Part shown: piece by piece, positions 703-24,821 of the stretch | Position numbering within the stretch: the first letter of the stretch is position 1 | Layout of the letters: the number at the start of each line of letters is the position of its first letter | Origin: a virus | DNA: 27,398 nucleotides | IMG/VR virus record: IMGVR_UViG_3300024518_002863 | Span: 1 to 27,398 of that record | Direction: 5' to 3' (one strand) | Notes under the pieces: model-generated | Seen by the model: the letters and a program-made list of their open reading frames with translations, nothing else | The model's database searches: none | What the model was told of the DNA's origin: nothing | Position numbers and translations under genes: made by a program

Positions 703-705
703 AAA

Positions 706-2898: not shown

Positions 2899-3467
2899 AA
2901 CGCAAGCCACTGGGGAAGCGGCTCAGGTTCTCAATCTTTGAACGCGACTGCTTTACTTGTCAATATTGCGGGAAAACTCCGCCCGAAATTGTACTTGTCA
3001 TTGATCACATTTTACCTGTTGCCAGTGGCGGAACAAACGACAAAGAGAACTTGCGCACATCTTGCGAGGCTTGCAACCAGGGAAAGCACTCAAAGGTGCT
3101 TGGAACCGATACGGTAAACCCGATGGAAGCCCTTCGGAGGCATCAGGAGCTTTCAGAAGAACAGATACTCGCGGAGCAGCTTGCAGAGGCGATCAAGGTT
3201 AGGGAAGAGACACGGGAGAAGATTGTCAATTTGCTTTGTGGGAAAATTGACAGGACAGTGTGCAAAAAGCGAAACGTCACAACCATAATCAATGCAATAA
3301 ATGAGTTCGGCGTAGAGAGTGCATTAAGCTGGCTTGATATTGCAGCGAATACAGTTGCTCACAATCACCCAAACCCACCAAATGAAACAGACCTAATCAA
3401 ATACTTTTGCGGAATAGCTGGAAACAGGCGCAGGGAAGTATTGAACGAAAGGTACCCACTTGGATGA
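2895..3467 (+). CDS. HNH endonuclease
   Basis: The product has 190 residues. The N-terminal HNH nuclease domain (about residues 10-65) is complete: zinc-binding CxxC at 22-25 and CxxC at 57-60, the catalytic DH pair at 37-38 (VIDHILPVASGG), then the conserved Asn residues at 52 (ENLRTSC) and 61 (ACNQGK). The C-terminal ~120 residues are helical and unassigned. HNH enzymes nick or cut DNA; phages use them in packaging, in recombination or as homing enzymes. Being locked into an operon with a start-stop overlap at both ends argues for a resident phage function rather than a free-standing homing gene. Confidence 0.92.
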   Translation: MKRKPLGKRLRFSIFERDCFTCQYCGKTPPEIVLVIDHILPVASGGTNDKENLRTSCEACNQGKHSKVLGTDTVNPMEALRRHQELSEEQILAEQLAEAIKVREETREKIVNLLCGKIDRTVCKKRNVTTIINAINEFGVESALSWLDIAANTVAHNHPNPPNETDLIKYFCGIAGNRRREVLNERYPLG

Positions 3468-4438
3468 GAGCTAGAAACATCAAACCTGCATTCTTTCTTG
3501 ATGATGATATTCTCGAACTAGAACCGCTTGAAAGGATTTTCTTTGCTGGTCTTTGGTGCGCATCCGATGGATATGGCAGGCTCGTGAATAAGCCAAAACA
3601 GCTCAAGCGAACAATCTTGCCCGATGATGAATTTGATGCAGGGCGGGCACTTAAACGAATGCACGAGATAGGGATTGTCATTTTATACAGTATAAACGGG
3701 ATAGACCTAATGCAGATCGCAGGATTCCAAAGGCACCAAAGCCCAATGATGAACGAAAAGAATGCAGGCAGTCAAATTCCCTGTCCTACTGGCTTCACAG
3801 ACAAATACGGGCCAAAGATGAAGGACGCAAAAGGCAAGTATTCCATACCAATTCCACACCCAATAAAGGATGAGTACAAGACTAGTACAGTACCAGTACA
3901 AAACGGCTCTTGTCTTAGTCGGGATGATGTTAAGATATTAGGATGTTCTGATATTACGATTCCTGATATTAAGAATCATGATAATTATGATAATCCGAAG
4001 TACAGTCCTGAAACACTCCCACACCAAACTCCAGCCATGAGCGAAAACTCAACGCACTATTTCGAAGCGTGCAGGCACTACCAAAAACCAAACGTGGACA
4101 AGCTCTATCTGGCCCGCAACGAAACCCAAGCCAAAACAGTCGAAACCATCGACAAATGGCACGCTGCCGGACTAATGAAAATCAAACCTGGCTATCTAGC
4201 CGCCGCAAAGTGCCAAGTTTTAACCGAGTATGCCTACAAAAACGCAGATGCAGTCATCAGGGCGTGCAAGGCGAGCGACTTTTGCCGGAACAACTGGCCA
4301 TTCTCAAGGGCGTTCAAGCCTAAAAACGTGAGTCAGTTGATTGTCGGCGAATATGCACAGGTCAGCAAGGAAGAGGCCGAGCTTGGGAAAACGCAGAAGG
4401 CATACACAACAGGAATGAATCGGTCGCAGCCGAGATGA
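3464..4438 (+). CDS. phage replication initiator/replisome organiser with internal origin
   Basis: The product has 324 residues. The N-terminal ~110 residues (RARNIKPAFFLDDDILELEP, then IFFAGLWCASDGYGRL and KRTILPDDEFD) match the winged-helix N-terminal domain common to phage replication proteins. A low-complexity linker (about residues 125-190) is encoded by an iteron-like and AT-rich stretch. A helical C-terminal domain (about 190-310) follows, a layout recalling lambda O. The preferred ATG at 3464 overlaps the HNH stop; an upstream in-frame start at 3407 would lie inside the HNH gene. I infer that it binds the internal origin and recruits a helicase or loader, which is not encoded in the window. 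Helicase-loading itself is not visible in the sequence. Confidence 0.82.
   Translation: MRARNIKPAFFLDDDILELEPLERIFFAGLWCASDGYGRLVNKPKQLKRTILPDDEFDAGRALKRMHEIGIVILYSINGIDLMQIAGFQRHQSPMMNEKNAGSQIPCPTGFTDKYGPKMKDAKGKYSIPIPHPIKDEYKTSTVPVQNGSCLSRDDVKILGCSDITIPDIKNHDNYDNPKYSPETLPHQTPAMSENSTHYFEACRHYQKPNVDKLYLARNETQAKTVETIDKWHAAGLMKIKPGYLAAAKCQVLTEYAYKNADAVIRACKASDFCRNNWPFSRAFKPKNVSQLIVGEYAQVSKEEAELGKTQKAYTTGMNRSQPR
3872..3904 (+). repeat. three 11-bp iterons (nAGTACAnnAC) inside the initiator gene
   Basis: Three consecutive 11-mers, GAGTACAAGAC, TAGTACAGTAC and CAGTACAAAAC, occupy 3872-3904. The AGTACA cores start at 3873, 3884 and 3895, exactly one helical turn apart. A fourth AGTACA core is at 3999-4004, beyond the AT-rich segment. 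Such spacing is typical of initiator-binding iterons; binding by the host gene's own product is inference. Confidence 0.7.
3931..3994 (+). other. AT-rich repeat segment, candidate DNA unwinding element of the origin
   Basis: Three copies of GATATTA (3934, 3950, 3965; spacing 16 and 15) are followed by two copies of ATGATAAT (3978 and 3987, nine bases apart). The segment is strikingly AT-rich compared with flanking coding sequence and directly follows the iterons. The combination matches the iteron plus unwinding-element plan of the lambda-type origin within the initiator gene. Confidence 0.6.
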
Positions 4439-4466
4439 CAAAACAGGAAATAACACAGGAGGCCAG

Positions 4467-4694
4467 ATGTACACCACGCAACACATAAAAGCCCAAGGCG
4501 GCACACTGGAAGAGCTGGAGCAGGCCATTGCCAATATTCGCAAGATGTCAAAAGGGGCAAAGGTTGAAATTTCGTTTAACTTTAACGCGCCAGACCAGAA
4601 AGACAATGATATTGAACTATTCGCTGAGTGGGATCAGGCAGAGAATGCCGCAGGATCGTATTTCATATACCCAGACGGCACAGAAATAGCATAA
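4467..4694 (+). CDS. hypothetical protein, 75 aa
   Basis: A perfect AGGAGG lies just before the ATG, making this a well-supported gene. The product is acidic in its C-terminal half (ELFAEWDQAENAAGSYFIYP) with an N-terminal helix (TLEELEQAIANIRKM) and a central strand. The fold looks like a small alpha/beta domain. No family is recognised. It follows the replication initiator by 28 bases and probably shares its transcript. Confidence 0.7.
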   Translation: MYTTQHIKAQGGTLEELEQAIANIRKMSKGAKVEISFNFNAPDQKDNDIELFAEWDQAENAAGSYFIYPDGTEIA

Positions 4695-4746
4695 CCCATA
4701 CCAGCACATGGATAAAGAATTTAAATCGCTTAGAAGGGCTTAAAAC

Positions 4747-4983
4747 ATGAACAAACCCGAATACGACCACGAGCTGAAGTTGCAGATGTCACAGTTTCAA
4801 CCAGCAATTGAAGGGAAACTCAAGCAAATTAAAGTCCAGACTCATGGAGAAGTGTTCAAGATCGGGCAGAACGTCCTGTTCAAAGAGTGGAACCCGGCGG
4901 GGGGATATTCTGACAGGGCTTTCTCCACAAAGATTTTAGGGATTGCCTATTGCGGGGAAACGGCACTTTTGGCGGTGAAATGA
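4747..4983 (+). CDS. hypothetical protein, 78 aa
   Basis: AGAAGGG about eight bases upstream supports the ATG at 4747. The product is Lys-rich with a central beta-rich stretch (GEVFKIGQNVLFKEWNPAGG, then TKILGIAYCGE), resembling a small SH3- or Tudor-like barrel, but no family is recognised. It sits in a row of small unknown genes downstream of the replication initiator. Confidence 0.65.
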   Translation: MNKPEYDHELKLQMSQFQPAIEGKLKQIKVQTHGEVFKIGQNVLFKEWNPAGGYSDRAFSTKILGIAYCGETALLAVK

Positions 4984-4996
4984 AACTGGGTGAACG

Positions 4997-5302
4997 ATGA
5001 GCACAAGAGCATCTATCAAATTTACAGACGCAGATGATACATATTTTGTTTACAGGAGATGCGACGGATTCCCGGATGAGGTTCTTGCAGATATTAATTC
5101 AGTAATTGTCATTGCAAAGGGGCGCTGGTCTGGATCAGAAGCGGGCCAACTTGTAGCGCTATTTTTTGCATATACAGGAGATGCCAACATGAGGCTCCAG
5201 CATTATGAACTTACATCCTGCGTTCATGGTGATGAGAGCTACGAATATCTTGTTGATTATGACGAATCTGACGGCACATGGAAAGCAGAGGTTGTTGAAT
5301 AA
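4997..5302 (+). CDS. conserved phage protein (MSTRASIKFTD type), unknown function
   Basis: The product has 101 residues. The opening MSTRASIKFTDADDTYFVYR, the motif CDGFPDEVL, the central KGRWSGSEAGQLVALF and the later VHGDESYEYLVDYD are a pattern I recall from small phage and prophage proteins annotated only as hypothetical. It appears to be a compact alpha/beta domain. GGGTGA precedes the start, and the stop overlaps the next start (TAATG). The role is unknown; its place among accessory early genes suggests host interaction, as inference only. Confidence 0.75.
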   Translation: MSTRASIKFTDADDTYFVYRRCDGFPDEVLADINSVIVIAKGRWSGSEAGQLVALFFAYTGDANMRLQHYELTSCVHGDESYEYLVDYDESDGTWKAEVVE

Positions 5303-5484
5303 TGAAAACCTACAAAGTTATTCGATTCGCGGGAGCAGTTTGGCGCACTGTGTACCAAAACGAAGCCTTTCTCAAGGCAAAGGTCTACTATAACGCGGAA
5401 ACCACAGCGCGGCCAGGGGAGAAAATACAGCTTGTCGATCCTGAAGGGAAGCCGATCAAGCAAAATTTCAGCTATGGGGGCTAA
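5302..5484 (+). CDS. hypothetical protein, 60 aa
   Basis: The ATG overlaps the preceding TAA by one base (TAATG), indicating translational coupling. The short, basic, beta-rich product starts MKTYKVIRFAGAVWRTVYQ and ends NFSYGG. No family is recognised. It is the third of a coupled run of small genes (4997-5733). Confidence 0.6.
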   Translation: MKTYKVIRFAGAVWRTVYQNEAFLKAKVYYNAETTARPGEKIQLVDPEGKPIKQNFSYGG

Positions 5485-5487
5485 GTG

Positions 5488-5733
5488 ATGGACACAAAAT
5501 GCGACGAGGACGGAGTCCCTTTGTTTGTGCAGAAAATCGCCTACTTGTATAGTGGGATGCTTTTTCGTGTAAGACTTTTCAACGGCAATGTTATGGTGTT
5601 TTGTGTGGGAAGTGTTCTGCCTGGTGTTGGACTTATGGACAGGCCAAACGAGAGGCAAATGGAGCTTGCTGCTGACATTATTGGTAGGCGGCTAGAGGCG
5701 GGAATGTTTAGAAACTCGCTCAGGTGGAGATAA
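5488..5733 (+). CDS. hypothetical protein, 81 aa
   Basis: GGGGG (5476-5480) lies seven bases before the ATG at 5488, favouring it over a GTG at 5485. The product has a hydrophobic beta-rich core (LYSGMLFRVRLFNGNVMVFC) and a helical C-terminus (ERQMELAADIIGRRLEAG). No family is recognised. The stop overlaps the next start (TAATG). Confidence 0.6.
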   Translation: MDTKCDEDGVPLFVQKIAYLYSGMLFRVRLFNGNVMVFCVGSVLPGVGLMDRPNERQMELAADIIGRRLEAGMFRNSLRWR

Positions 5734-6041
5734 TGGGCCACACCAAAACCAAAGTAGACAAGAACCAGCGGCTCATTATGGATTGGCTCATTGCAGCCGG
5801 AGCAACTGTTGACAGCTTAGCGGCGTGTGGTAAGGGGATCCCTGATTTATTGGTGGGCTTTCGCGGGCTTAATATCTTGCTCGAGGTGAAAAATCCGGAC
5901 ATGCCACCTTCAAAGCGGGTACTTACGCCAGATCAGGTTACTTGGCACGCGAAACACGGCGGACAGGTGGCGGTAGTGGAGACGGTGATGGACGTTATGC
6001 AGGTTTTGGCAATTTGTAACGGGAAAAGGCGAGGGAGGTGA
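5733..6041 (+). CDS. VRR-NUC / Holliday-junction-resolvase-like nuclease
   Basis: The product has 102 residues. It shows the PD-(D/E)xK core of small phage resolvase-like VRR-NUC proteins: GIPDLLVGF (catalytic Asp near residue 38), then LLEVKNP (Glu 51 and Lys 53), then a downstream Gln (LTPDQVTWHAKHGGQVAVV) and the usual C-terminal strand. The metal-binding residues appear intact. Such enzymes cut branched DNA during recombination or before packaging. GTGGAG precedes the ATG at 5733. An alternative GTG at 5724 would add three residues and is less likely. The last early gene of known fold before packaging, it could resolve junctions ahead of TerL. Confidence 0.82.
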   Translation: MGHTKTKVDKNQRLIMDWLIAAGATVDSLAACGKGIPDLLVGFRGLNILLEVKNPDMPPSKRVLTPDQVTWHAKHGGQVAVVETVMDVMQVLAICNGKRRGR

Positions 6042-6044
6042 GGG

Positions 6045-6185
6045 ATGAAAGATGCGGAATCTTTTGAAATAATCCTGAAGCAATTCGAGGCTTCAATGGA
6101 GCGGCTGAGAAAATGGCTCATGGAGAAAGTCGTTATCCATCAACCGTTTATCGGGCGCAAGAGTTACAAGGGAATGAACAATTAG
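6045..6185 (+). CDS. small helical hypothetical protein, 46 aa
   Basis: A strong GGGAGGTGAGGG precedes the ATG at 6045. The product begins MKDAESFEIILKQFEAS and continues with an amphipathic helix (MERLRKWLMEKVV) and a basic tail. It begins four bases after the nuclease stop. No family is recognised; the ribosome binding site and packing are the main evidence. Confidence 0.55.
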   Translation: MKDAESFEIILKQFEASMERLRKWLMEKVVIHQPFIGRKSYKGMNN

Positions 6186-6196
6186 CGGGAGGAATG

Positions 6197-6358
6197 ATGG
6201 ACAAGGAAACGCAGGCGATCAGGGACAAGCTTTGGGTCGAGGTGTATACGAGCGCAGAGAAAAGGCATTCAACAACACCGGCATACTGTGTCGCAAGGGC
6301 AGATGATGCCGTGAAAGCCTTTGACAACAGGGAAAAACCGAAAAGCGAGAACGAGTAG
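6197..6358 (+). CDS. small hypothetical phage protein, 53 aa
   Basis: GGGAGG (6187-6192) lies four bases before the ATG at 6197; an adjacent ATG at 6194 is too close. The sequence (KLWVEVYTSAEKRHSTTPAY, then ARADDAVKAFDNRE) resembles short helical proteins often found next to phage packaging genes, which carry an Ala-rich DDAVKAFD-like helix. The function is unknown. Confidence 0.6.
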   Translation: MDKETQAIRDKLWVEVYTSAEKRHSTTPAYCVARADDAVKAFDNREKPKSENE

Positions 6359-6408
6359 AAATTGCCAAAGCGCAAGAAAGATTCCATGTGGAACGGTCCA
6401 AAGTAGCT

Positions 6409-6438
6409 CTAAACTATTTTGGGCCATTTTTAGTATAG
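6409..6438. repeat. imperfect dyad upstream of the packaging operon
   Basis: CTAAACTA (6409-6416) and TAGTATAG (6431-6438) form an inverted repeat with seven of eight pairs, separated by 14 bases. It lies in the only real gap (6359-6472) between the early genes and the late operon, and contains a TATAGT that could be a -10 element, though no matching -35 is visible. It could be an operator or weak terminator for the late operon. Confidence 0.35.
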
Positions 6439-6472
6439 TGCAGGCGAGGAACTGTAAAACATAGAGAGAGCA

Positions 6473-6760
6473 ATGCCATTTCAGAAGGGAAAAAGCGGCA
6501 ATCCTAACGGCAGGCCAAAGAAAGGCCATGCTGTTTCTGAGATTGTGGCAGAAATTGCCGCCGAGAAAAGAGATGGCTCTACCAGGCTGAAAAAGCTGCT
6601 TCTTACTTTGTGGGCAAATGCTGAAAACGGTTGCCTGCAATCTACAAAAATACTATTGCCGTATATTGAGCCAGAGCCCAGAGCAGAGCAGAAGATAACA
6701 GGCGAGGACATGAGCCCAGTCCGATTAATCATCAGGAGAGATAGTGATAGCGGCTCCTGA
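6473..6760 (+). CDS. DUF5681-type protein, candidate small terminase subunit
   Basis: The product has 95 residues. It opens with FQKGKSGNPNGRPKKG, the signature of the DUF5681 family, which in phages stands directly upstream of the large terminase. The following helical part (EIVAEIAAEKRDGSTRLKKL) and an acidic tail fit a DNA-recognition and oligomerisation role. Assignment as TerS rests on position and family habit; the length is below that of well-studied small terminases, so it may be only the DNA-binding part. The ATG follows GAGAGAGC. It overlaps the TerL start by 17 bases. Confidence 0.75.
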   Translation: MPFQKGKSGNPNGRPKKGHAVSEIVAEIAAEKRDGSTRLKKLLLTLWANAENGCLQSTKILLPYIEPEPRAEQKITGEDMSPVRLIIRRDSDSGS

Positions 6761-7988
6761 AATCTATCCAGAGCACGAGGAAATATTAGACGATCCAGCG
6801 CGATTTAAAGTGCTGGTGAAGGGTCGCCGGTGGGGTGGAACTATCTTGGGTGACTTATGGTTGACGGATGGCGAAATACAGCCCGGAGAGCTCCGCTTAC
6901 ATGTCAGCCCGTACTTAAAGCAGGCCAAAAAAAACGTATTCCCATACCTTCAGTTTTTGCATAGACAGGTAGGTGGATCCCGCTTGAACAGATCAGAGCT
7001 ACAGCTGGAGCTCCCTAATCAGGCAATTATCAGAATATGTGGGGCAGACAATCCCGATAGCATTCCCGGTGAAGGGTGCAAGCGTGTTTGGCTTGATGAG
7101 TACGACCTCTACAAAGATCAGACAATATGGGAAAGAGTGCTCCGACCAATGTTGTCTGACACTTTAGGCGATGCGCTATTCACATCTTCCCCGCGTGGGC
7201 GCAAGAATATGTACGATTTCTATATGCGCGGGAAAAGTGTAGACCCTAATGATTCTGATTGGTCAAGCTGGTTATTCACAACAGCGCAAAGCCGATTCGT
7301 GGCACTTGAAGAGGTCGAAGCTGCAAAGCGGGATATGGACCCGCTCATATATGCTCAGGAATACGAGGCCAGCTTTGACACAGGCGGCAACCAATGCGCT
7401 TGGAACTTTAAGCACGATAAACACGTCAAGGACCAGAAAAGCAAGCCAAGACAGGACGAGAGTTGGATTGGATTGGATTTCAACATATCGCCAATGGTTG
7501 CCGAAATTGGCGGACATATGACGGTTGACAATAAACGAATAATTCACTATTACGACGAGATCGTCATACCGGCAAGTGCTAACACTGACATGATGTGCAA
7601 GATCCTGAAAGAGCGTTATCCGGGGATCAGCTTAATCTATCCAGACCCAACAGGGAAAGCAGGCAGCACGCAAAGTATAAGATCGGACCATGATATATTG
7701 CACGATCATGGCTTTACAATTCGGGCACATCCACCCGGCAGGCCGAAACAGAATGAGCGCTTGTCAAGCTGGAACCGTATGTTGCTCGATGGCGAGGGGG
7801 AGGTCCACATGACGATAAGCCCGAGGTGTAAGCGCTTGATAGAGGACCAGGACAAGGCAGAACGTCTGCCGGATGGCGGAATTAACAAGCGCAAACGTGA
7901 CCCGCACGCACTAGATGCGGCGAGTTATGCCGTTGAATATCAGCATCCTATTCAGTACCGAAACGTGTCAGTAAGGAGAACAGCATGA
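6744..7988 (+). CDS. terL: large terminase subunit (ATPase-nuclease)
   Basis: The product has 414 residues and forms the motor that translocates and cuts phage DNA into the procapsid. The ATPase domain has KGRRWGGT (about 26-33) as Walker A, RVWLDEYD as Walker B with catalytic Glu, and FTSSPRG as the coupling motif. The nuclease domain has WIGLDFNISP as first acidic site and DPHALDAASYAVEY as the C-terminal one. The usual Walker A Lys before Thr is Gly, which is odd. The GTG start at 6744 has AGGAGAG upstream. The stop overlaps the portal start. Confidence 0.93.
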   Translation: MIAAPEIYPEHEEILDDPARFKVLVKGRRWGGTILGDLWLTDGEIQPGELRLHVSPYLKQAKKNVFPYLQFLHRQVGGSRLNRSELQLELPNQAIIRICGADNPDSIPGEGCKRVWLDEYDLYKDQTIWERVLRPMLSDTLGDALFTSSPRGRKNMYDFYMRGKSVDPNDSDWSSWLFTTAQSRFVALEEVEAAKRDMDPLIYAQEYEASFDTGGNQCAWNFKHDKHVKDQKSKPRQDESWIGLDFNISPMVAEIGGHMTVDNKRIIHYYDEIVIPASANTDMMCKILKERYPGISLIYPDPTGKAGSTQSIRSDHDILHDHGFTIRAHPPGRPKQNERLSSWNRMLLDGEGEVHMTISPRCKRLIEDQDKAERLPDGGINKRKRDPHALDAASYAVEYQHPIQYRNVSVRRTA

Positions 7989-9337
7989 TAAGGGTAATTG
8001 TGAGCGAGCTTTCTCCGGCGGCAATCCGCAAAGAGATACGCGGCTTTTTTAATAATGGCGGGGATCAGCACCTCGACAAACGAATGCTTGCCTGGGGCAA
8101 GTACCAGGGCAAAGGGAATATCCTCAAGGAAGAGGTCGGGCAGTATTTCCCGGACTGGTTCCTCCAATCACTAAAACTCCCGATCTGCATTCAAAACCCG
8201 GCGCGTAAGATCGTGAATAGCCGGTTTATCAGTTATCGCTTACCTCCCGAGCGCACTGTTTCGGACCAGCTCGGCGCGGTTGAGCATAAACTGGACACTG
8301 CAATGCGCAAGCTAGAGCTCTCCGTGGGCGTACTTGGGCAGGATGCTTTGCTGATTCGTTGGGATGACGACGACGCTCGTTTTAATTATTTCGTTTTACA
8401 GAAGTATATCCAGATCTACCTACCGGGGGACCTTGAGCCGGCTGGCGTGGCATATCCATTGCACAGCCCAGACAAACAGAAAGATAGCGCCTGCCGTTGG
8501 GCCGTATGGACAGACAAGCTTTCGTTTTATATCGAGGGTGGCGGGGACCAGGTTACACAGAACGACGACGGCACAGAAGACAATCCTTGGGGCGTGCTTC
8601 CTGTTTTGTTTGCGCATCGTGACGATGAAGACAGCGACATACTCTCCGATGTCCTGAATGCTCAGGCGTGGCATAATTATACAATGACCTATGCCGGGCA
8701 CGCGGGGCTCTTGCAGGGGATGGGTGTTCCTTGGAAAAGTGGCAGACCTCCACAAGAGGGACAAACTGAAGCTGTGGGACCATATAACCTCCAATACACA
8801 GAGGCGGGCGGCTTTGGGTTTGCTACACCAGGCATCGACCTTGAGAAGCTGCCAGCACTGTCAAAAGAGTATTTGAACAGCGTAGCATTCTCACACCATC
8901 TCCAGCTCAACTGGGCGGGTGAATCCAAAGCCACGAGCGGCGAGCACCAGCGTTTGCTTGAGGCTGATTTGTCTATTGCGGTCCAGGCGGATAACTTTAA
9001 GTGGGCAGAATTTGAAAAGAACCGTGTAGAGACTGAGCGAATTATTGCTCAAGCGAATAATATAAACACTGGTCCTGACGACTTTGGTGTTAATTTCCGC
9101 GAGTCACACTTGCCAATGAGTGAAAATGAGCGGTATGACTTATGGAAGAAAGAGCACGACTCAGGGCTTGCAACTCGTGCTGATTATTTCCAGCGCAGAG
9201 ACCCAGACCTCGGGAAAGTAGAGGCTGAGGAAAAAGTACAAGAGCTTGACGAGTCCCGGCGGGCACTAAACGAAATCACAGAGCCAAAGCCACCCAGAGC
9301 GAGCGGCTTGCTTGACGCGCTAAGGCAGGAAAGCTAG
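7985..9337 (+). CDS. portal protein
   Basis: The product has 450 residues. Placement directly between TerL and a MuF-like minor head protein, length, and an alpha/beta layout with a helical C-terminal half (about 290-390, including LPALSKEYLNSVAF and LLEADLSIAVQADNF) identify the dodecameric portal, the DNA gate at the head vertex. The segment around RKIVNSRFISY is the helix-strand region usual for portals near the N-terminus. The C-terminus is acidic and probably disordered. AAGGAGAAC precedes the ATG at 7985. No motif is diagnostic by itself, so the call is mainly contextual. Confidence 0.82.
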   Translation: MIRVIVSELSPAAIRKEIRGFFNNGGDQHLDKRMLAWGKYQGKGNILKEEVGQYFPDWFLQSLKLPICIQNPARKIVNSRFISYRLPPERTVSDQLGAVEHKLDTAMRKLELSVGVLGQDALLIRWDDDDARFNYFVLQKYIQIYLPGDLEPAGVAYPLHSPDKQKDSACRWAVWTDKLSFYIEGGGDQVTQNDDGTEDNPWGVLPVLFAHRDDEDSDILSDVLNAQAWHNYTMTYAGHAGLLQGMGVPWKSGRPPQEGQTEAVGPYNLQYTEAGGFGFATPGIDLEKLPALSKEYLNSVAFSHHLQLNWAGESKATSGEHQRLLEADLSIAVQADNFKWAEFEKNRVETERIIAQANNINTGPDDFGVNFRESHLPMSENERYDLWKKEHDSGLATRADYFQRRDPDLGKVEAEEKVQELDESRRALNEITEPKPPRASGLLDALRQES

Positions 9338-9340
9338 GCA

Positions 9341-10141
9341 ATGGCAAACCCGTCTAAAACAATCGACATGTTCTCCCAGCGCATTGAGAAAGCGTTTGGC
9401 AAGATCCGTGACGAGTTAGGCGATATTGTTGAGCAACTTGCGGCAAGTGGCACTTCTGCCGAGCAGATTGTCCAGGCTTTAGCGAGTCCTGATTTGCGTG
9501 CGGATCTTGGGTTTGGGCGTGAATCGCTTAGCGAGTTGTTTGAGAGAACAGCTACTCAGGTTTTGGCGGCTGCACCGGCGCTTGGCGCGTCAACGATCAC
9601 GCCGGAAATGATCGAAGCCTTGACAACAATTGCAGAGCAATCTTTCCTCGCTCATGCTGACCGATATTGGACAACATTACAGAAAGAGTTAACGAGTTCA
9701 GTAATAAGCGGGAGCACCACAGGGCTCAGGAAGACATTACAAGGAATTGAGGGTTTGCAGGCACATCAGGTGGAAGCGGCTTTCAATACGACGCTCAACA
9801 CATACTCAAGCTCGGTAGGAGCGGAGGTTGCTCGCAATGATCCACCATCGGCAAAATATACCTATGAGGGGCCGATGGACGATCGGACCCGCGACGAATG
9901 CCTCGCAATGGGGGCAGCCGGTCCTTTGACCCGTGACGAAATTGAGCGGAATTGGCCAGGCGCTTTTATTGACCGTGGCGGATATAATTGCCGGCACCAA
10001 TGGGTTCCGGTGGCAGCGGCTGCCGATACCAACACAAAGGGAGCCAAACATCGAATAGACGAAAAGAAAAAGGCCGGGAAATGGAGAGAGCCCATTTCAG
10101 TGCGACAAAAGGCGGAGGCAAAAAGTGCCGGAACTACATAA
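9341..10141 (+). CDS. MuF-like minor head protein
   Basis: The product has 266 residues. The C-terminal region (about 173-224) shows the Mu gpF/SPP1 gp7 motif: YTYEGPMDDRTRDECLAMG, then an IERN segment and GGYNCRHQWVPV. The N-terminal ~160 residues are helical. Members bind the portal and enter the head in small numbers, sometimes being ejected with DNA. It begins four bases after the portal stop. The basic, Lys-rich C-terminal tail overlaps the start of the next gene. No toxin domain is fused, unlike some MuF proteins. Confidence 0.88.
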   Translation: MANPSKTIDMFSQRIEKAFGKIRDELGDIVEQLAASGTSAEQIVQALASPDLRADLGFGRESLSELFERTATQVLAAAPALGASTITPEMIEALTTIAEQSFLAHADRYWTTLQKELTSSVISGSTTGLRKTLQGIEGLQAHQVEAAFNTTLNTYSSSVGAEVARNDPPSAKYTYEGPMDDRTRDECLAMGAAGPLTRDEIERNWPGAFIDRGGYNCRHQWVPVAAAADTNTKGAKHRIDEKKKAGKWREPISVRQKAEAKSAGTT

Positions 10142-10442
10142 GGCTTGCGCACTTTGCAAGGGCGCTTGCTGTGAATCATTTGTTTTGCCATTACCGGCAG
10201 ACAAGAATATATCAAAATGGCTCTCCTTGCACGGTACCCCCGAGGGTCCAATGTGGCGCTCAGTGCGCTTTGAATGCGCGTGTCGTTTGCTGAAGTCCGG
10301 AAAGTGTACCGCCTATAACGACAGGCCGGAACCATGCAAAGAGTACAAGGTCGGCGGAGAGGGATGCAGGCAGACAATCAGAACCAGGCGGGCGCACATG
10401 GTCGAGGCTATTACAAGGCTAATTGAGGACTCTGATGGCTAA
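10125..10442 (+). CDS. Cys-rich zinc/iron-chelating (YkgJ-like) protein
   Basis: The product has 105 residues. CALCKGACC (C-x2-C-x3-CC, residues 8-16) followed by further Cys residues in FECACR, GKCTAYNDRPEPCKEY and GEGC matches the putative metal-chelating YkgJ/CxxCxxxCC family. Proteins of this kind are thought to bind zinc or an iron-sulfur centre; the biochemical role is not established. The GTG start has GGCGGAGG upstream and overlaps the MuF stop, so it belongs to the head operon. A metal-binding protein between the minor head protein and a morphogenesis protein is unusual and may be an assembly chaperone or a passenger gene. Confidence 0.82.
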   Translation: MPELHKACALCKGACCESFVLPLPADKNISKWLSLHGTPEGPMWRSVRFECACRLLKSGKCTAYNDRPEPCKEYKVGGEGCRQTIRTRRAHMVEAITRLIEDSDG

Positions 10443-10890
10443 GCCGTTGAAAGATATTCCCATTGTTGGGCGGCCTACTTGGCGAGATATTGCAGACAGT
10501 GCAGTCCGCAAGATCAAGGAATTGACCGGCAAGGGTTCAGGTGTTGATGGCGCTTTTGGCGCTTATACTAGAGCCTATAGTAGGCGAAAAAGTAAGGGCG
10601 GGTTTCCACATCAAGCGAGCATGTCCACAACACCAGACCTCAAGCTTACCGGCGACATGATGCGGGATTTAAAGACCACGAGCGTAGGGGAAACCTTTGC
10701 AGTTATTTCCTGGCCGTCACAGGGCGAGAAAGTCCGATGGAACACGGCACAAGGCCGGGCAGTTTCCACGCTGGATAAGCCTCTTGCGAAATCGGTCGCG
10801 AATTATATCTTTAGACGTATTGACAAAGCCATCAAGCGGAATATAAAACAGGCTCGCGTCCATAAAACTTTCCGCTTTGGCAAACGGTAA
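10435..10890 (+). CDS. virion morphogenesis / head-tail completion-like protein
   Basis: The product has 151 residues and is basic. It contains a stretch of the kind TPDLKLTGDMMRDLKTTSVG followed by beta-rich VISWPSQGEKVRWNTAQG, which recalls phage virion morphogenesis proteins (Mu gpG or HK97 gp10-like) that act at the head-tail interface. An upstream in-frame TTG at 10423 exists, but the ATG at 10435 has GAGGA at good spacing. It overlaps the preceding stop and precedes the scaffold. The family call is tentative; the structural role is inferred from neighbours. Confidence 0.6.
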   Translation: MAKPLKDIPIVGRPTWRDIADSAVRKIKELTGKGSGVDGAFGAYTRAYSRRKSKGGFPHQASMSTTPDLKLTGDMMRDLKTTSVGETFAVISWPSQGEKVRWNTAQGRAVSTLDKPLAKSVANYIFRRIDKAIKRNIKQARVHKTFRFGKR

Positions 10891-10908
10891 ACAAGAAAGG
10901 GAGCAGCA

Positions 10909-11472
10909 ATGTTCCAAGATCCCGAGGGCACCGGCGGAACTGGTGTGGGCGAGGGTACCGGCGGTACTGGTACAAATAGCCACGATGACACCGGCGGAAC
11001 CGGTGGAAATGATAACGGGGGCCGGGCTGAGGCTAGAATCCGAACCCTTTCAGATGAAAACAAAGCACTATCCGAAAGGCTCAATGCACTGGACCAGGCA
11101 GCGGCAGATCTTAAGGCTTCCGAAGCCAAAAAGCGTGGAGATTTTGAAACCCTCGAAAGCGGGTACAAAACCACAATCGCGGACCAGACCACAGAGCTCG
11201 AGGAATTGCGCGGCTTTCAGAAGTCGCACAGAGAGAACCTTTTGAGCAAGCTATCTGACGATGACAGAGCACTTGCTGAAGGGTTACCATTGGACAAGCT
11301 CCCGGCATTCGTGGAGCGCATGTCCGACAAACCAGCTGGCAAAGGTGCTGGCGGAAATCCCGGAGGCGGGCAATCACCGGGCGGCGACAAGCTTACACCG
11401 GAAGAGGTGAGCGCAGGAGTTGCCGCTGAGGGTCTTGGATTCCTAGCGAAAAACAAGGCTCGCATAGGGTGA
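10909..11472 (+). CDS. scaffold-like protein with Gly/Thr repeats
   Basis: The product has 187 residues. It lies directly upstream of the major capsid gene, where the scaffold is expected. The N-terminus has three Gly-Thr-Gly repeats (EGTGGTG, EGTGGTG, DTGGTGG). A long acidic coiled coil follows (LSDENKALSERLNALDQAAA, then ELEELRGFQ), then a Gly-rich C-terminal linker and a short helix. Scaffolds guide capsid assembly and leave before packaging. AAAGGGAGCAGC precedes the ATG. No protease gene was seen, so maturation may not need cleavage. Function is inferred from position and coiled coil. Confidence 0.75.
   Translation: MFQDPEGTGGTGVGEGTGGTGTNSHDDTGGTGGNDNGGRAEARIRTLSDENKALSERLNALDQAAADLKASEAKKRGDFETLESGYKTTIADQTTELEELRGFQKSHRENLLSKLSDDDRALAEGLPLDKLPAFVERMSDKPAGKGAGGNPGGGQSPGGDKLTPEEVSAGVAAEGLGFLAKNKARIG
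10930..11004 (+). repeat. three near-identical 15-bp repeats in the scaffold gene
   Basis: ACCGGCGGAACTGGT (10930-10944), ACCGGCGGTACTGGT (10957-10971) and ACCGGCGGAACCGGT (10990-11004) differ by one base from the first copy. They encode TGGTG each time. They probably reflect slippage-type growth of a flexible linker. Confidence 0.8.
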
Positions 11473-11478
11473 TAACCG

Positions 11479-11499
11479 ACTCCGCAAAAACGGAGTTTT
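11479..11499 (+). promoter_or_regulatory. hairpin overlapping the capsid gene ribosome binding site
   Basis: ACTCCG (11479-11484), a CAAAAA loop and CGGAGT (11491-11496) form a perfect six-base-pair stem followed by TTTT including the final stem base. The right arm contains the GGAG that would be the Shine-Dalgarno site of the major capsid gene starting at 11503. It may act as a weak attenuator, an RNA processing site or a translation switch. Confidence 0.5.
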
Positions 11500-11502
11500 A
11501 TC

Positions 11503-12387
11503 ATGTCTGACGTATTAAAAGGTGCGGCGGAGCTAGCAGGCTGGCTCAATACCGAATTTGCCCCGGCGGCTTTCGGTTATTTCCAGCACGAGAGACAGTT
11601 GGCACAGTGGGCAACGGATTATTCCTCATTGCTCGCGCCAGGTGCAAAGGCAATCTCAATTCCACAGAGCGCGGCTGTTGTTGCAGAGAGCCGTGGAGCC
11701 TCTGGTGAGACAGCGGTTGAGTATACCGGCAAGGGCAGTGACGAGGGCGCGGCTACTATTACCGTGAATCAGTTTTACACTGCCGCTCACTTGATCACAA
11801 AACTTGCAGCCTCGCAAGTGCGCAGCAATACCCAAATTGGACAGCACTACATCGAGGGTACTGTTTATGCCTTGCGCAGTTCTCTCGAGACTTATTTGGC
11901 AGTTACGACCATTCAGGATGGCGGAACTACAAACGATGTGTCCCTCGGCACTGCAAATACAGTTAGCACTGCAAAGCTAAACGAGGGCATCTCAAACCTA
12001 ATGAATGATAATGCTTATGTCCCTGGGCAGGTTGTCCTCGGCATGAGTCCGGAAGCGTGGGCGGCTTCGGTTGCCGATTGGGATGATCTTTATTTCCATG
12101 TAAGTGCAACGGGTGGAGCAACAATGCTCACTAATGGCGCTATTGGGTCCATTCAAGGGCTCCCGATCTATGTTTCCGGCGATTGGGATGGAACCAACAC
12201 GTTAGGCATTGAAACAGCTTCCCTATGGAACAAACGTTCCATTGGTTACGGAATGCAAAATGCTTTCGACATCATCGGACCGGTTGACGATCCTACTCGC
12301 GGCGGCATTGGATTCAGTGTCGAGCTCTACTATGGAGCCACTGTCATCCTTGAACCCGGCATTGCGAACTTCAACAATCCAGGCTAA
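11503..12387 (+). CDS. major capsid protein
   Basis: The product has 294 residues. It lies after the scaffold and before the connector, and has the size of an HK97-fold coat protein. It opens with a helical N-arm (LNTEFAPAAFGYFQHERQLA), followed by conserved-looking strands and a long helix region (LRSSLETYL). Later segments such as LPIYVSGDWDG and FDIIGPVDDPTRGGIGFSVE are typical of coat proteins that include an A-domain and end in a beta strand. No long N-terminal propeptide is obvious. GGAG is seven bases before the ATG, inside a hairpin. A strong hairpin follows the gene at 12402. Confidence 0.88.
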   Translation: MSDVLKGAAELAGWLNTEFAPAAFGYFQHERQLAQWATDYSSLLAPGAKAISIPQSAAVVAESRGASGETAVEYTGKGSDEGAATITVNQFYTAAHLITKLAASQVRSNTQIGQHYIEGTVYALRSSLETYLAVTTIQDGGTTNDVSLGTANTVSTAKLNEGISNLMNDNAYVPGQVVLGMSPEAWAASVADWDDLYFHVSATGGATMLTNGAIGSIQGLPIYVSGDWDGTNTLGIETASLWNKRSIGYGMQNAFDIIGPVDDPTRGGIGFSVELYYGATVILEPGIANFNNPG

Positions 12388-12401
12388 ACAGAACCACCAA
12401 C

Positions 12402-12427
12402 GGCGGGCCGGTTTCGGCTGGTCCGCC
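12402..12427 (+). other. strong RNA hairpin after the major capsid gene
   Basis: GGCGGGCCGG (12402-12411) pairs with CTGGTCCGCC (12418-12427) over ten base pairs including two wobble pairs, with a six-base loop. There is no T-tract, so it is more likely an mRNA-stabilising or processing element, or a partial terminator, that keeps coat mRNA abundant. Confidence 0.6.
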
Positions 12428-12443
12428 ATATTGTGAGCGACCA

Positions 12444-12596
12444 ATGGAAAACAATGAGTACAACACATTGAAACGCATGGATCGTGCAATTTCTGAGCGC
12501 ATGGATCGGAAGCGGAAGAACACCCGCGAAATGCGCAAGTTTCACGATTCAATTAAGCGTTCTCGTGACAGATTCGAGAAAGCCCTCGACCGCTAA
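12444..12596 (+). CDS. small very basic hypothetical protein, 50 aa
   Basis: The reading frame starts MENNEYNTLKRMDRAI and is dominated by Arg, Lys, Asp and Glu in helix-forming order, with two near-repeats ERMDR/KRMDR. The ribosome binding site is weak (GAGCGA). It fills the space between the capsid hairpin and the next gene. It may bind nucleic acid or be an assembly peptide; no family is recognised. Moderate confidence because of the weak initiation site. Confidence 0.5.
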   Translation: MENNEYNTLKRMDRAISERMDRKRKNTREMRKFHDSIKRSRDRFEKALDR

Positions 12597-12611
12597 AGGT
12601 ATGGAGCCAAC

Positions 12612-12812
12612 ATGAAAACGATTCTGTTTTTCTTTGTCAAAAAGAGCTTTCAAGGGCTTGTATCTCTTGGGCGCGAAAAGATCGACACGAAAGCCGAGCG
12701 GGATGCACTCGCGGAAAAGATCTACATTGACAAGAAGGCTCAAATCGTTGGCATTTTCTCTAAGGCTTTAGGGAAACTGAATGATCAATTAGACCGCATT
12801 GACGGGGAATAA
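12612..12812 (+). CDS. small hypothetical protein with hydrophobic N-terminus, 66 aa
   Basis: GGAG is five bases before the ATG. The product begins MKTILFFFVKKSFQGLVSLG, a short hydrophobic stretch that could be a weak signal or a membrane-contact helix, followed by a charged helix (DTKAERDALAEKIYIDKKAQ). It lies directly upstream of the secreted SGNH protein. No family is recognised. Confidence 0.6.
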   Translation: MKTILFFFVKKSFQGLVSLGREKIDTKAERDALAEKIYIDKKAQIVGIFSKALGKLNDQLDRIDGE

Positions 12813-12824
12813 AAAGGAAAAACG

Positions 12825-15380
12825 ATGAAATATATAATTGCGCTTTTATTGTTTCCTGTGATTGCGTTCTGTAATTCAGGGAGCATTACAGAGTTTCAAT
12901 CCTACGTTGCCGCCAAAATCGCAGCAGAGGAACAGATTGTCTTCTATGCAACGGGCGATTCTTGGCTTGTGACAGACTACTATAACGGCGCAGAGGCTGC
13001 CGTTGACCTGCCAGTTGCCAAGCCGTACGGGTGGGAGGTCGGCACTGACGATCCTACATCTTGCAACATCAGTGTTATGAACCAGCAGCTCGCACGCAGG
13101 ATCCAAACGGCGCACTATGTCAATAATGGTGTAGGCTCAATGCAGCTCATGCTCGGAACCGATGCAGATGAGTCACGCGCCCAGATTGACAGCTCAATGT
13201 ATGGCATGATCCGCTCACAGGTTGTTACAGATCATGACATTGATATTGCATACTTTCCAGGTAGCAACGGAACAAACGACTATATCGGCGGGAGTACAGC
13301 TTACGCACAGCTCCGAGCTGAAGTTGTTGCAACTGCCAAGAAGTCAATAGATGTTTTTAATGAAACAGCGGATTGGATCGTCTGGCTTGCTCCGAGGCCA
13401 GTTGGAAAGCACTTATATGACAGGGACGGCGGCGAGGACGATGATGCGCGGGCGGCTCAGGTTGCTGGCTTTGATGTGATTGACAGCCTCTCAACTTTTA
13501 TTGCTGACACGCTCAGAAGTGAGCTTGCATCTTTGGGTTTAAGGACTTCAAAGTTTATAGCCTTTGACATGCGCCCCTATTCAGCGGAAACGGACACAGC
13601 AGCAGTTAATTATTGGGATAATTATAATTGTGCAGATACCACAGATTATAACGCAATCAGACACGTTCAAGTTTCCCCTTGGAACTGGTATAAGCCGAGC
13701 GATTATGCGCACTTGAATGATTATGGCGATCGATGCATGGCTGATTCAATGGCACAGTATCTTTTTGGGATCACCTTAGATAATTCCTTTACGCAGGGAG
13801 CAGGCAGGACGATTTACTGCGATCTTGACAATGGGGACAATTGGGCTAACCGATCCAAGTGCACGAACCGAAACACTCCACTCGCAACGCTCCAGGCTGG
13901 CCTAAATCATGCCTCTCCAGGTGACATTGTTCGGATCATCGGCGAGGGAAACCAGAGTGTCATGATCTGGGATTCGACAACATCGGCGAGAGTATCCGCG
14001 AACACATACGAATGCAGGGTTACGCAGCCAGGGCTCACAGTATACCTTGAAGATGGAGCAGTATTTAACGGTTTACGGCAGTCGAGTATTTTGTCATACA
14101 GAACCACGACTTTCACGGGTGGAACTAGCTTTTTTGATGATGTTTCTTGCACTGCTGGCGACTCGACAGACATGCACAGTCATTCCCATGCGGATTCATC
14201 ATATAAATATCGGCGAATGATTGACCTTGATTTCAAGCTCGAGGGCGAGAGTAAAGAGTGGATCTTGGGTTATTATGTGACATTCGACTCAAAAGGCTAC
14301 AGCGGTCTCACATACAAAAACCTAAGCATAACGGGCGGGCCACTAAAGCAGTTAATGATCAACCATAACATGCAAAACACAGGGCAAGAGTTTTACATGG
14401 AGGACTGCATTGTATACTATGACAGCTCTGCAACGGGAACGAACGAGAGCTATTTGAGATTTACAAGTTTCGACAGTCTTGGCGCGGCGGATGACATGAC
14501 AGATTCAACTTCTTGGACAGGGCACATCAAAGACACAATTTTCCAGGGGCGTGCAGCTAAAAATAGCGAGGCTGCAATTCATGGGAGAATTAATGGGATT
14601 GATTTAATTAGCTGCCAGTTTTTAGATGATGACCCCGGCGGGCGCTGGATTTCACCAGGCTCTGTGAATGCGCTAGGCACTGTGTCCAGACAGGGCTATG
14701 ACACATTTAAAATCATCAATTGCCTTTTTGATGCTGGCACAACATACACAGGAACAGGCTCTCCTGTTTACGATGTTTATGCTCCTGGGGATACCTTGTT
14801 AATCGTTAACAGTGAAGCACGATATAAGGGGGCGTCGAGCACAGAGTTTTTCGACTCGTCAAGCAATGAACACACTGACCATCAGGTGATAATCATCAAT
14901 TCGGTAATGAAAAAAATTGAGCTTTCTTCTGGTGATATTACTGGCCCAGACGATACTGTGACAAATGGCGCGTCGATCGGCTGTTATATCGCTCAAGGGA
15001 TTGAGTCAGATAGTGATACGCTTTATTGGGGCGGGGCAACATCTTTTATAGGTTACGACCTTGCCGACTTTGGAATCACACACGGCACAAACCATGCGAG
15101 CATTGGCCCAACACAGTACACAGCGAGTCCGTTAATTCGTCTCGGCACAACTGAAATGCCAAACGTCCCAGACTATGCAGAAAAGACAATTTTCGATCTT
15201 CAGCAGTTAATCTCGACGGGTGTTTTGTCCGCTTGTGATACTACAGATGTAAATACATGGATAAGAGTGCAGGTTTCCAACACGCCAGGCGGACAAGCTC
15301 AAGCGGCGTATATTATCGCGCTTTGGAACGACATGCCAACAGCAACGAGAGAAGATTTACTATTGAACTTCTCCTACTAA
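12825..15380 (+). CDS. signal-peptide-bearing SGNH hydrolase with beta-helix domain
   Basis: The product has 851 residues. A Sec-type signal peptide is visible (K2, hydrophobic 4-14, likely cleavage near residue 16; no good lipobox). Residues about 35-315 form an SGNH/GDSL hydrolase domain: GDSW with Ser 46, an NNGVGS oxyanion segment near 100-105, GTND with Asn 151, and DYAH giving Asp 293 and His 296. From about 327 (GRTIYCDLDNGDNW, TPLATLQAGLNHASPGDIV) a right-handed beta-helix of the pectate-lyase/tailspike type begins and extends to about 790. SGNH domains commonly deacetylate or deesterify polysaccharides. A depolymerase or glycan deacetylase is likely. A secretion signal on such a protein inside the capsid operon is unusual. 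Confidence 0.85.
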   Translation: MKYIIALLLFPVIAFCNSGSITEFQSYVAAKIAAEEQIVFYATGDSWLVTDYYNGAEAAVDLPVAKPYGWEVGTDDPTSCNISVMNQQLARRIQTAHYVNNGVGSMQLMLGTDADESRAQIDSSMYGMIRSQVVTDHDIDIAYFPGSNGTNDYIGGSTAYAQLRAEVVATAKKSIDVFNETADWIVWLAPRPVGKHLYDRDGGEDDDARAAQVAGFDVIDSLSTFIADTLRSELASLGLRTSKFIAFDMRPYSAETDTAAVNYWDNYNCADTTDYNAIRHVQVSPWNWYKPSDYAHLNDYGDRCMADSMAQYLFGITLDNSFTQGAGRTIYCDLDNGDNWANRSKCTNRNTPLATLQAGLNHASPGDIVRIIGEGNQSVMIWDSTTSARVSANTYECRVTQPGLTVYLEDGAVFNGLRQSSILSYRTTTFTGGTSFFDDVSCTAGDSTDMHSHSHADSSYKYRRMIDLDFKLEGESKEWILGYYVTFDSKGYSGLTYKNLSITGGPLKQLMINHNMQNTGQEFYMEDCIVYYDSSATGTNESYLRFTSFDSLGAADDMTDSTSWTGHIKDTIFQGRAAKNSEAAIHGRINGIDLISCQFLDDDPGGRWISPGSVNALGTVSRQGYDTFKIINCLFDAGTTYTGTGSPVYDVYAPGDTLLIVNSEARYKGASSTEFFDSSSNEHTDHQVIIINSVMKKIELSSGDITGPDDTVTNGASIGCYIAQGIESDSDTLYWGGATSFIGYDLADFGITHGTNHASIGPTQYTASPLIRLGTTEMPNVPDYAEKTIFDLQQLISTGVLSACDTTDVNTWIRVQVSNTPGGQAQAAYIIALWNDMPTATREDLLLNFSY

Positions 15381-15393: not shown

Positions 15394-15552
15394 ATGCTTC
15401 GACTATTACTCGCACTCCTCCTCGCGTTCTCCTTTGCGGGGGAGGTGTGTGCTGTTGCCCCGTCTGACTATATGCTATACATTGCTCGCGGATTTGATCC
15501 TTGTGAAAAACTAATGAGCGACCTGCGAACAGAGTTTGACTACTTCAAGTAA
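15394..15552 (+). CDS. small predicted secreted protein, 52 aa
   Basis: The product starts MLRLLLALLLAFSFAGEVCA, a textbook signal peptide with an Ala/Cys cleavage region, leaving a mature peptide of about 32 residues with one further Cys and acidic helix (CEKLMSDLRTEFDYF). AGGGGACTTGAAA precedes the ATG at 15394. It follows the SGNH protein by 13 bases and probably shares its transcript. It may be a partner or inhibitor of the secreted hydrolase, or a separate periplasmic peptide. No family is recognised. Confidence 0.65.
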   Translation: MLRLLLALLLAFSFAGEVCAVAPSDYMLYIARGFDPCEKLMSDLRTEFDYFK

Positions 15553-15573: not shown

Positions 15574-16554
15574 ATGAGCACAAACAACGAGCGCTATTGC
15601 ACCATCGCAGACCTCCAGGATATTATCCCGGAGATCGGTGCATTTGACCGAAAGCGCAAACTCGGCGGATGGGAGCTGACAGCATCGGCAAAAGTTTATC
15701 TGTGCGGAGATTCTGGCGTGGTTGCGCAATTGTTTCGAGACGGGGAAAACCTCGGCGATCCTGAATCGAGCCTAGTGGATGTGCAAGCCGGGGTTGATGG
15801 TGATTGGATTTATGTTGCACAGACAGACCAAACCTATATCTTGAGCACATTAGAGCCTGATGCTGAGCATCTTATGGAAGCTGGTACAGATTGGGAAGAC
15901 GCCTATTTAAAAGCCATAGCCAAAGCAACGGCAATGATTCGCTCCTTTGTACGTAGGCCGATTATCAAGCGCCCAGGGGCCGCTCAGGATGTTGGATTGC
16001 GCGATTATGACGAGTGCATTATACAAGCAACGGCAATCCTCTCTTGCACCTATTTGGTGGAGGAGGAAGATTCAGAGCTCCACGACCGTTTGCAGATGCG
16101 GGTTTTCGGCACAGAAACAGACCCGAAAGGGCTGGCTGTGCAAATCCGCGAGGGCGAGTTCAGGCTATGGAATGAAGCCGGGCCAGAAACCGCCAAGGGT
16201 GACTATACAGAAATCAGCATAAATAGTAGTACTACCGGCGGCATCAGGGATATTAGAGGGAAAGCTCGAGTTTCTTATGACCGGGTGAAGGTTATCATTG
16301 TGACCGGTGGCACGTTTACCGATGGCACAGCAAGCGCGGTGACTTATTCTGTGTATATTGCAGATTCAACCGGGGCAAAAATGAGCCAGGTAGTAACAGC
16401 TTCGACTATTACCGGAACTTATCAGGCGCTCGCACATGGTCTTGAGATTATGTTCTCAGCGGGAGTGTATGTTGCAGACGATGAGTGGGAGGTCGAGGTC
16501 AACGGACAGGAAACAGAAACAGACCGGCGAACCGCGCCGATTTCGAGGTTCTAA
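15574..16554 (+). CDS. head-tail connector (DUF1320/gp36-like) with extra beta domain
   Basis: The product has 326 residues. The opening YCTIADLQDIIPE and the helical block DAYLKAIAKATAMIRSFVRR, then IIQATAILSCTYLVEEED, recall gp36/DUF1320 connectors that seal the portal. Between these, about residues 35-90 form an inserted beta-rich segment. The C-terminal ~110 residues (RVKVIIVTGGTFTDGTASAV, GTYQALAHGLEIMFSAGVY) look like a beta-sandwich of the kind repeated in phage surface proteins. An adhesin-like or decoration domain added to a connector would be exposed at the neck. Head-completion role from context; domain interpretation is moderate. Confidence 0.68.
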   Translation: MSTNNERYCTIADLQDIIPEIGAFDRKRKLGGWELTASAKVYLCGDSGVVAQLFRDGENLGDPESSLVDVQAGVDGDWIYVAQTDQTYILSTLEPDAEHLMEAGTDWEDAYLKAIAKATAMIRSFVRRPIIKRPGAAQDVGLRDYDECIIQATAILSCTYLVEEEDSELHDRLQMRVFGTETDPKGLAVQIREGEFRLWNEAGPETAKGDYTEISINSSTTGGIRDIRGKARVSYDRVKVIIVTGGTFTDGTASAVTYSVYIADSTGAKMSQVVTASTITGTYQALAHGLEIMFSAGVYVADDEWEVEVNGQETETDRRTAPISRF

Positions 16555-24112: not shown

Positions 24113-24173
24113 TCCGGCGTGCAGGCCGGAATTTCCCACCCGACAATGCAGGCTCCAGTAAAATCGGAGCCTG
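24113..24173 (+). other. two hairpins after the endolysin gene
   Basis: TCCGGC (24113-24118) pairs with GCCGGA (24125-24130) and is followed by ATTT, and CAGGCTCC (24149-24156) pairs perfectly with GGAGCCTG (24166-24173). Neither has a strong U-tract on the + strand. They may act together to end or process late rightward transcription. Confidence 0.5.
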
Positions 24174-24181
24174 TACTCCAT

Positions 24182-24220
24182 AAAAAAGCCCCGTTTGCAA
24201 GGCCAGGGAGCAAACGGGGC
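24182..24220 (-). terminator. rho-independent terminator for the leftward genes
   Basis: GCCCCGTTTGC (24188-24198) and GCAAACGGGGC (24210-24220) form a perfect 11-base-pair stem with an 11-base loop. A run of six A (24182-24187) gives a U-tract on the minus-strand transcript. It stands between the convergent endolysin gene and the leftward operon. Some rightward termination by the stem alone is possible. Confidence 0.92.
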
Positions 24221-24282
24221 AACAGCGAAGGAAAGAAACAACATTCAAGGAGGTTTGAACGCTTCCAATATAGCACTCCTTC

Positions 24283-24516
24283 TCACTTGTTCAAGGTGCA
24301 AGCACTCAGGCTCGCCCCGATTTTCTTGAGTTCCCTGTCAAAGCGCGCACAGGCTATCTGAGCCACCCCGTTGTCAAATGGCAGAACCGTATAGGCAATG
24401 CAAATAAGGTGCTCTCGCGCCGCCCTAATGCTATTAGGCTGGATTGGCCAGGGGTAGCAATGGCTCAAATCCCCGCTAATCCTGCGCTTGATTTCTTTTC
24501 GCCAGTTGGTGCTCAT
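24283..24516 (-). CDS. leftward hypothetical protein, 77 aa
   Basis: The start at 24516 has GGAGG at five-base spacing and overlaps the upstream gene's stop (ATGA). The product begins MSTNWRKEIKRRISGDLSHC and is basic and helical, with Cys residues at several sites. The alternative longer start (24543) is not needed. It is the second gene of a two-gene leftward unit ended by the terminator at 24182-24220. No family is recognised. Being transcribed opposite to every other gene suggests a regulatory or lysogenic/exclusion role, as inference. Confidence 0.7.
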   Translation of the reverse strand: MSTNWRKEIKRRISGDLSHCYPWPIQPNSIRAAREHLICIAYTVLPFDNGVAQIACARFDRELKKIGASLSACTLNK

Positions 24517-24620
24517 TTTGCCTCCGCAACTTTTTCCGCACATTCTTTCTTTTTAAAGATTCCGACAATAGCAGAACTTACACCACACTCGATGCATCCA
24601 ATGTTAAATACGATGTACAT
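24513..24620 (-). CDS. leftward CxxC microprotein, 35 aa
   Basis: The start at 24620 follows AGGAG at six-base spacing. The product begins MYIVFNIGCIECGVSSAIVG and ends shortly after a basic helix (KKKECAEKVAEAK). The IGCIECGVSS motif recalls a family of small phage proteins that I remember as being about twice this length, so this copy looks truncated at the C-terminus. The metal or redox role of the CxxC is unknown. It is first in the leftward unit, whose promoter lies at 24658-24685. Confidence 0.6.
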   Translation of the reverse strand: MYIVFNIGCIECGVSSAIVGIFKKKECAEKVAEAK

Positions 24621-24657
24621 TTCATGCTCCTGTTGTTTTGATTTATTCCTTGCCCAC

Positions 24658-24685
24658 AATATACACAAACTTTCCTTGTATGCAA
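24658..24685 (-). promoter_or_regulatory. leftward sigma70-like promoter
   Basis: On the minus strand, TTGCAT (complement of 24680-24685) is separated by 16 bases from TATATT (complement of 24658-24663). It would drive the two leftward genes starting at 24620. The -35 box lies within the right side of the dyad at 24676-24697. Confidence 0.6.
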
Positions 24686-24697
24686 TAGCGCATACAA
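24676..24697. promoter_or_regulatory. perfect 8-bp dyad, candidate operator
   Basis: TTGTATGC (24676-24683), a six-base spacer AATAGC, and GCATACAA (24690-24697) form a perfect inverted repeat that covers the leftward -35 box. It lies midway in the divergent region. Such a site fits a dimeric repressor; the binding protein is unknown. Confidence 0.65.
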
Positions 24698-24741
24698 ATA
24701 AAAGCACATTTATTTTGTAAAAAATTTAATATACAAAATGC

Positions 24742-24770
24742 TTGCAAATGTAAATTCGCATCGTTAGAAT
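24742..24770 (+). promoter_or_regulatory. rightward sigma70-like promoter
   Basis: TTGCAA (24742-24747) and TAGAAT (24765-24770) have the ideal 17-base spacing. It would drive the rightward early operon beginning with the gene at 24822, with transcription starting near 24777, just ahead of the tandem repeats. Confidence 0.75.
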
Positions 24771-24784
24771 AGGGGCGTAACGGT

Positions 24785-24812
24785 TGACAATTAACAACTG
24801 ACAATTAACAAC
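24785..24812 (+). repeat. two perfect tandem 14-bp repeats, candidate operator
   Basis: TGACAATTAACAAC occurs twice back to back (24785-24798 and 24799-24812), ending right against the ribosome binding site of the ribbon-helix-helix gene. Ribbon-helix-helix proteins often autoregulate by binding tandem repeats. TTGACA at 24784 resembles a -35 box but has no suitable -10. Confidence 0.8.
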
Positions 24813-24821
24813 GGAGGCATC

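Follow-up and report, generated by a model that had tools for sequence, protein, structure and literature searches.

The window analyzed here is a 27,398-nucleotide stretch of viral DNA in which an open reading frame (ORF) on the plus strand (12825 to 15380) encodes a protein of 851 amino acids, with an ATG start codon and a well-placed AAGGA-type ribosome site. As the first-pass annotation had stated, the gene lies in the head operon between the genes of the major capsid protein (MCP; 11503 to 12387; PHROG 267 major head protein, E = 1.7e-7) and a connector-like protein (15574 to 16554), which form the left and right borders of the site; these and the features that follow between them are all on the plus strand. 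Directly 3' of the capsid gene is a GC-rich hairpin of 11 bp with no T run (12402 to 12427; folding energy of -23.1 kcal/mol, z = -2.6), a possible attenuator between the capsid and cargo genes. It is followed by a mechanically called ORF for a basic protein of 50 residues with a weak ribosome site (12444 to 12596) and by an ORF of 66 residues (12612 to 12812), for which a family profile search gave no match. Downstream of the 851-residue gene and adjoining it, an ORF of 52 residues (15394 to 15552) begins, as judged by hydropathy, with a strong signal peptide (MLRLLLALLLAFSFAGEVCA, then VAPSDY) and is likely a partner in the same cassette. The codon usage of the 851-residue gene matches that of the rest of the phage, which indicates a settled gene; recent foreign import was rejected on this basis. 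Elsewhere in the head operon, a small protein (10125 to 10442) scores 27.2 bits against PF03692 (CxxCxxCC zinc/iron-chelating family), which exceeds the cut-off, and is an unusual neighbor for the MuF and scaffold genes.

The 851-residue protein has the three-part organization that the first-pass annotation described, i.e., a predicted Sec-type signal peptide (residues 1 to 16; 12825 to 12872), an SGNH motif set within a putative domain of residues 20 to 325 (12882 to 13799), and coil signatures of a β-helix in residues 326 to 790 (13800 to 15194), with a C-terminal tail of residues 791 to 851 (15195 to 15380). The N terminus reads MKYIIALLLFPVIAFC and continues with NS, so that a hydrophobic core follows one lysine. 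The n-region and the h-region are clear, and the hydropathy peak of 3.21 is the highest among the 37 ORFs of the window that were tested, in which the 52-residue ORF at 15394 is the only other one with a peak above 2. The cleavage site is not ideal; with Ala at -3 and Cys at -1, it has a von Heijne-type score of 4.4 at C16/N17 (hand-entered matrix), and AFC/N would suit signal peptidase I poorly. A lipoprotein was considered and rejected, since Phe before C16 makes a poor lipobox. The weak cleavage site would also suit a false-positive signal peptide on a cytoplasmic product or pseudo-enzyme, and hydrophobic N termini of phage proteins, such as capsid proteins, can mimic signal peptides (PMC10367356). 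We consider such an artifact the least probable of the alternatives, because no other ORF tested in the window reaches this hydropathy peak and because signal peptides recur, with better AxG/AxA sites, in a related contig described below.

The catalytic residues named in the first-pass annotation (Ser46, Asn151, Asp293, and His296) are exact in their numbering. The SGNH set is complete, with GDS at residues 44 to 46, GTND at residues 149 to 152, and D293-Y-A-H296-L-N-D-Y-G at residues 293 to 301, and a glycine-rich segment resembling block II (NNGVGS) is located near residue 100; blocks I, III, and V of the SGNH/GDSL superfamily are thus present in order together with the block II glycine. When residues 20 to 325 were shuffled 200,000 times, GDS/GxND/DxxHxNxxG with correct order and spacing never arose, and the looser pattern GDS/GxND/DxxH arose 25 times. 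Searches with the protein in Pfam, PHROGs, NCBIfam, and the PDB sequences gave no match, which is weak evidence against membership because profiles cover the divergent SGNH superfamily poorly. Single-sequence AlphaFold models, built with no alignment, have a pLDDT of 33 for the full length and 37.5 for the SGNH part (range, 33 to 38). In the low-confidence model of the SGNH part, a strand of residues 38 to 43 precedes Ser46, a strand of residues 139 to 143 precedes GTND, and a helix of residues 291 to 304 covers the DxxH motif; this order hints at the one expected of an SGNH fold. With Foldseek, the best match of this model, at a nonsignificant E value of 0.067, is an extracellular GDSL lipase (5mal), and no usable match came from a fold search with the model of the full-length protein. 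Deacetylase chemistry is plausible for the putative enzyme on the basis of its motifs.

In the β-helix region (residues 325 to 790), five coil signatures of the type KNLSI, EDCIV, NCLFD, and NSEAR were counted against 0.29 expected, and none of 20,000 shuffles reached this number, for a pattern that was chosen after reading the sequence. The segment TPLATLQAGLNHASPGDIVRIIGEG at about residues 351 to 375 resembles the start of many secreted β-helix proteins. In the low-confidence full-length model, strands are present in this region. A profile search of the region gave no match and its model is poor, so that this fold, like the SGNH fold, is assigned from motifs.

A search with the connector-like neighbor retrieved six contigs (L092 to L097), in which the identity of this protein is 48% for L092 and 32 to 40% for L094 to L097. 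L092 and L093 are 99.9% identical to each other and share with the window the gene order of portal, MuF, scaffold, MCP (39% identity), connector (48%), and tube, as well as the tape measure, the hub, and the following gene where the contig reaches. Their MCP-connector gap contains ORFs of 101 and 658 amino acids with signal peptides ending in ITAQA/L and STAQG/A, respectively. The 658-residue protein matches Pfam Beta_helix (E = 8.3e-13), a match that is found for this counterpart and not for the 851-residue protein itself. The two adjacent signal-peptide proteins (L092:4876-7167) have a common C-terminal module (52 to 54% identity), which could be a shared binding or anchoring domain. Between the window and L092, sequence similarity is not detectable for the β-helix proteins, for the C termini, including the tail of residues 791 to 851, or for the small partners. 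As read from the sequences, the genomes appear to have in common the genomic position, an export signal, a β-helix, and a small companion that is predicted to be exported, whereas the catalytic domain is not common to both, as the 658-residue protein has no SGNH domain.

The other relatives carry different genes at this site. Glycosyltransferase-like and sulfotransferase-like genes, with weak scores, lie between the capsid and connector genes in L095 (5917 to 7208) and also in L096; L097 has a spike-like S74 protein of 1,159 amino acids without a signal peptide, small membrane proteins, and a phosphoesterase-like gene; and L094 has a GH108 endolysin immediately before the connector. In phage DSL-LC06, which is related by its terminase only, an HNH endonuclease follows the capsid gene. 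Because the relatives differ in this way, the MCP-connector gap is regarded as a site of cargo exchange. Among 0.95 Mb of DNA from terminase-related phages, no other signal-peptide-like ORF longer than 259 amino acids was found. Tentatively, the lineage may keep a dedicated export-cargo site, in which unrelated Sec-exported β-helix proteins and their small signal-peptide partners are swapped between relatives and would act on glycans in free form, separate from the virion. The secretion proposed in the first-pass annotation gains from this comparison: export is better supported than from the sequence of one protein alone, because a relative with head genes 39 to 48% identical has a different signal-peptide β-helix protein at the equivalent site and because a small signal-peptide ORF lies alongside in each of the two genomes.

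Given the observed ORF, its motifs, the signal-peptide-like N terminus, the site, and the recurrent signal-peptide β-helix cargo in a relative, our preferred interpretation, to which we assign a probability of about 0.5, is that the protein is an export cargo of a tailed phage, i.e., a glycan O-acylesterase that is made late, exported, and released with the progeny. We infer that the protein is exported and active as an enzyme, and likewise its substrate, timing, and benefit. With its gene in the variable MCP-connector gap, the protein would be produced late with the structural proteins, and the host Sec system would export it with removal of the N-terminal ~16 residues. The SGNH domain would then strip acyl groups, probably O-acetyl groups, off a surface or extracellular polysaccharide to which the β-helix may bind. 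Released at or before lysis, the enzyme would trim the glycan on the dying cell, on debris, and on neighboring cells, so that the progeny would be neither trapped nor lost to unproductive rebinding; freeing progeny or altering the host surface, as the first-pass annotation had proposed, is possible. Free phage enzymes that act on extracellular polymers and are released at the burst are known (PMC6966330), which supports this interpretation, as do the surface-glycan-type genes with weak scores that L095 and L096 place at the site. It is weakened by the poor signal peptidase I site and by L097, in which the S74 spike-like protein in this position lacks a signal peptide. If the interpretation is correct, these phages produce, alongside their virions, a second set of glycan-acting proteins that is exported, it becomes a testable question how progeny get away from the slime and receptors of the cells left behind, and β-helix proteins in phage genomes should not be assumed to be tailspikes.

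The main rival, which we regard as unlikely but the strongest of the alternatives, is an enzymatic receptor-binding protein, either a tailspike or a head-attached spike, that is encoded away from the tail genes and whose hydrophobic N terminus serves as a membrane or assembly anchor. SGNH and β-helix are the two main enzymatic folds of the receptor-binding proteins of Klebsiella prophages (PMC13123978), and gp63.1 of Escherichia phage G7C and gp66 of Pectobacterium phage Possum deacetylate surface polysaccharide (PMC9569702). Like the 851-residue protein, these SGNH receptor-binding proteins have the SGNH esterase motif set in a long phage protein, and polysaccharide O-deacetylation would be expected. 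No obvious separate fiber or spike gene is seen in the interval from the final tail gene to the lysin in the window or in L093, whereas L095, with transferase-like genes at the site, has two fiber-sized genes before its lysin; the S74 spike of L097 also lies at the same site. However, this spike lacks a signal peptide, and signal-peptide-like N termini occur at this site in two phages on proteins unrelated in sequence, each beside a small signal-peptide ORF. These SGNH receptor-binding proteins are tail fibers of the virion and attach through their N-terminal part (as described for Possum gp66), whereas the 851-residue protein has a predicted signal peptide, its SGNH domain comes first, and its gene is in the head operon. 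Only ~20 residues separate the signal peptide from the first SGNH strand, which is predicted to start at residue 38 in the low-confidence model; this leaves little room for a virion-anchoring domain and favors the export interpretation. Known virion-attachment families were not found in the protein with Pfam and PHROGs.

Comparable roles for phage enzymes outside the virion are provided by PghP and LevP of Bacillus phage phiNIT1, which act on extracellular polymers; PghP is made late and is apparently located outside the virion (PMC6966330). Their folds differ from that of the 851-residue protein, and release of PghP is described as occurring by lysis. The NanS-p sialate O-acetylesterases of Stx phages are a further parallel, being SGNH-superfamily esterases carried as late-region cargo (PMC10462455), and they also lend weight to a host-benefit gene for auxiliary metabolism or lysogenic conversion, i.e., an esterase secreted either to make acetylated polysaccharide in the environment accessible or to change the cell surface as a defense against other phages. 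In the Stx phages, which are temperate, NanS-p is encoded downstream of stx and not at a capsid-connector site. NanS-p is not known to have a β-helix. The signal peptide and the appearance of a secreted enzyme would suit a host-benefit role, and genes with signal peptides, possibly involved in outer-membrane remodeling, are reported in Porphyromonas phages (PMC10367356). On the other hand, the gene sits inside the late operon, and no integrase or repressor is recognized among the ORFs of the 27.4 kb, a record that is incomplete and from which lysogeny genes could be missing. The lysogenic conversion suggested in the first-pass annotation accordingly finds no support, and we judge a host-benefit role improbable, more so than a receptor-binding protein.

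The SGNH protein gave no match in searches of phages, plasmids, and GTDB genomes, DNA patterns for block V likewise gave none, and it was absent from 40 records of terminase-related phages. When its two halves were searched in IMG/VR, a near-identical partial copy was found in a single contig (L004), which is identical to the window over 670 to 12872. Seven of the nine differences between them fall in the first 369 bp of the SGNH gene, and four of these seven alter amino acids (N17D, L62Q, A65S, and D75A). No hypervariability of the gene is read from this cluster, as it falls in the final 330 bp of the L004 contig, the control pair L095/L096 likewise shows clustered differences close to a contig end, and L092 and L093 also differ near one. 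A diversity-generating retroelement is unlikely, because plus-strand A is not involved at four of the seven sites. Left of 664 to 670, L004 is essentially unrelated to the window, so that the early region contains a sharp junction of mosaic type. In the segment from 24119 to 25050, after the M15-type lysin, the apparent coding density is low and the GC skew reverses locally.
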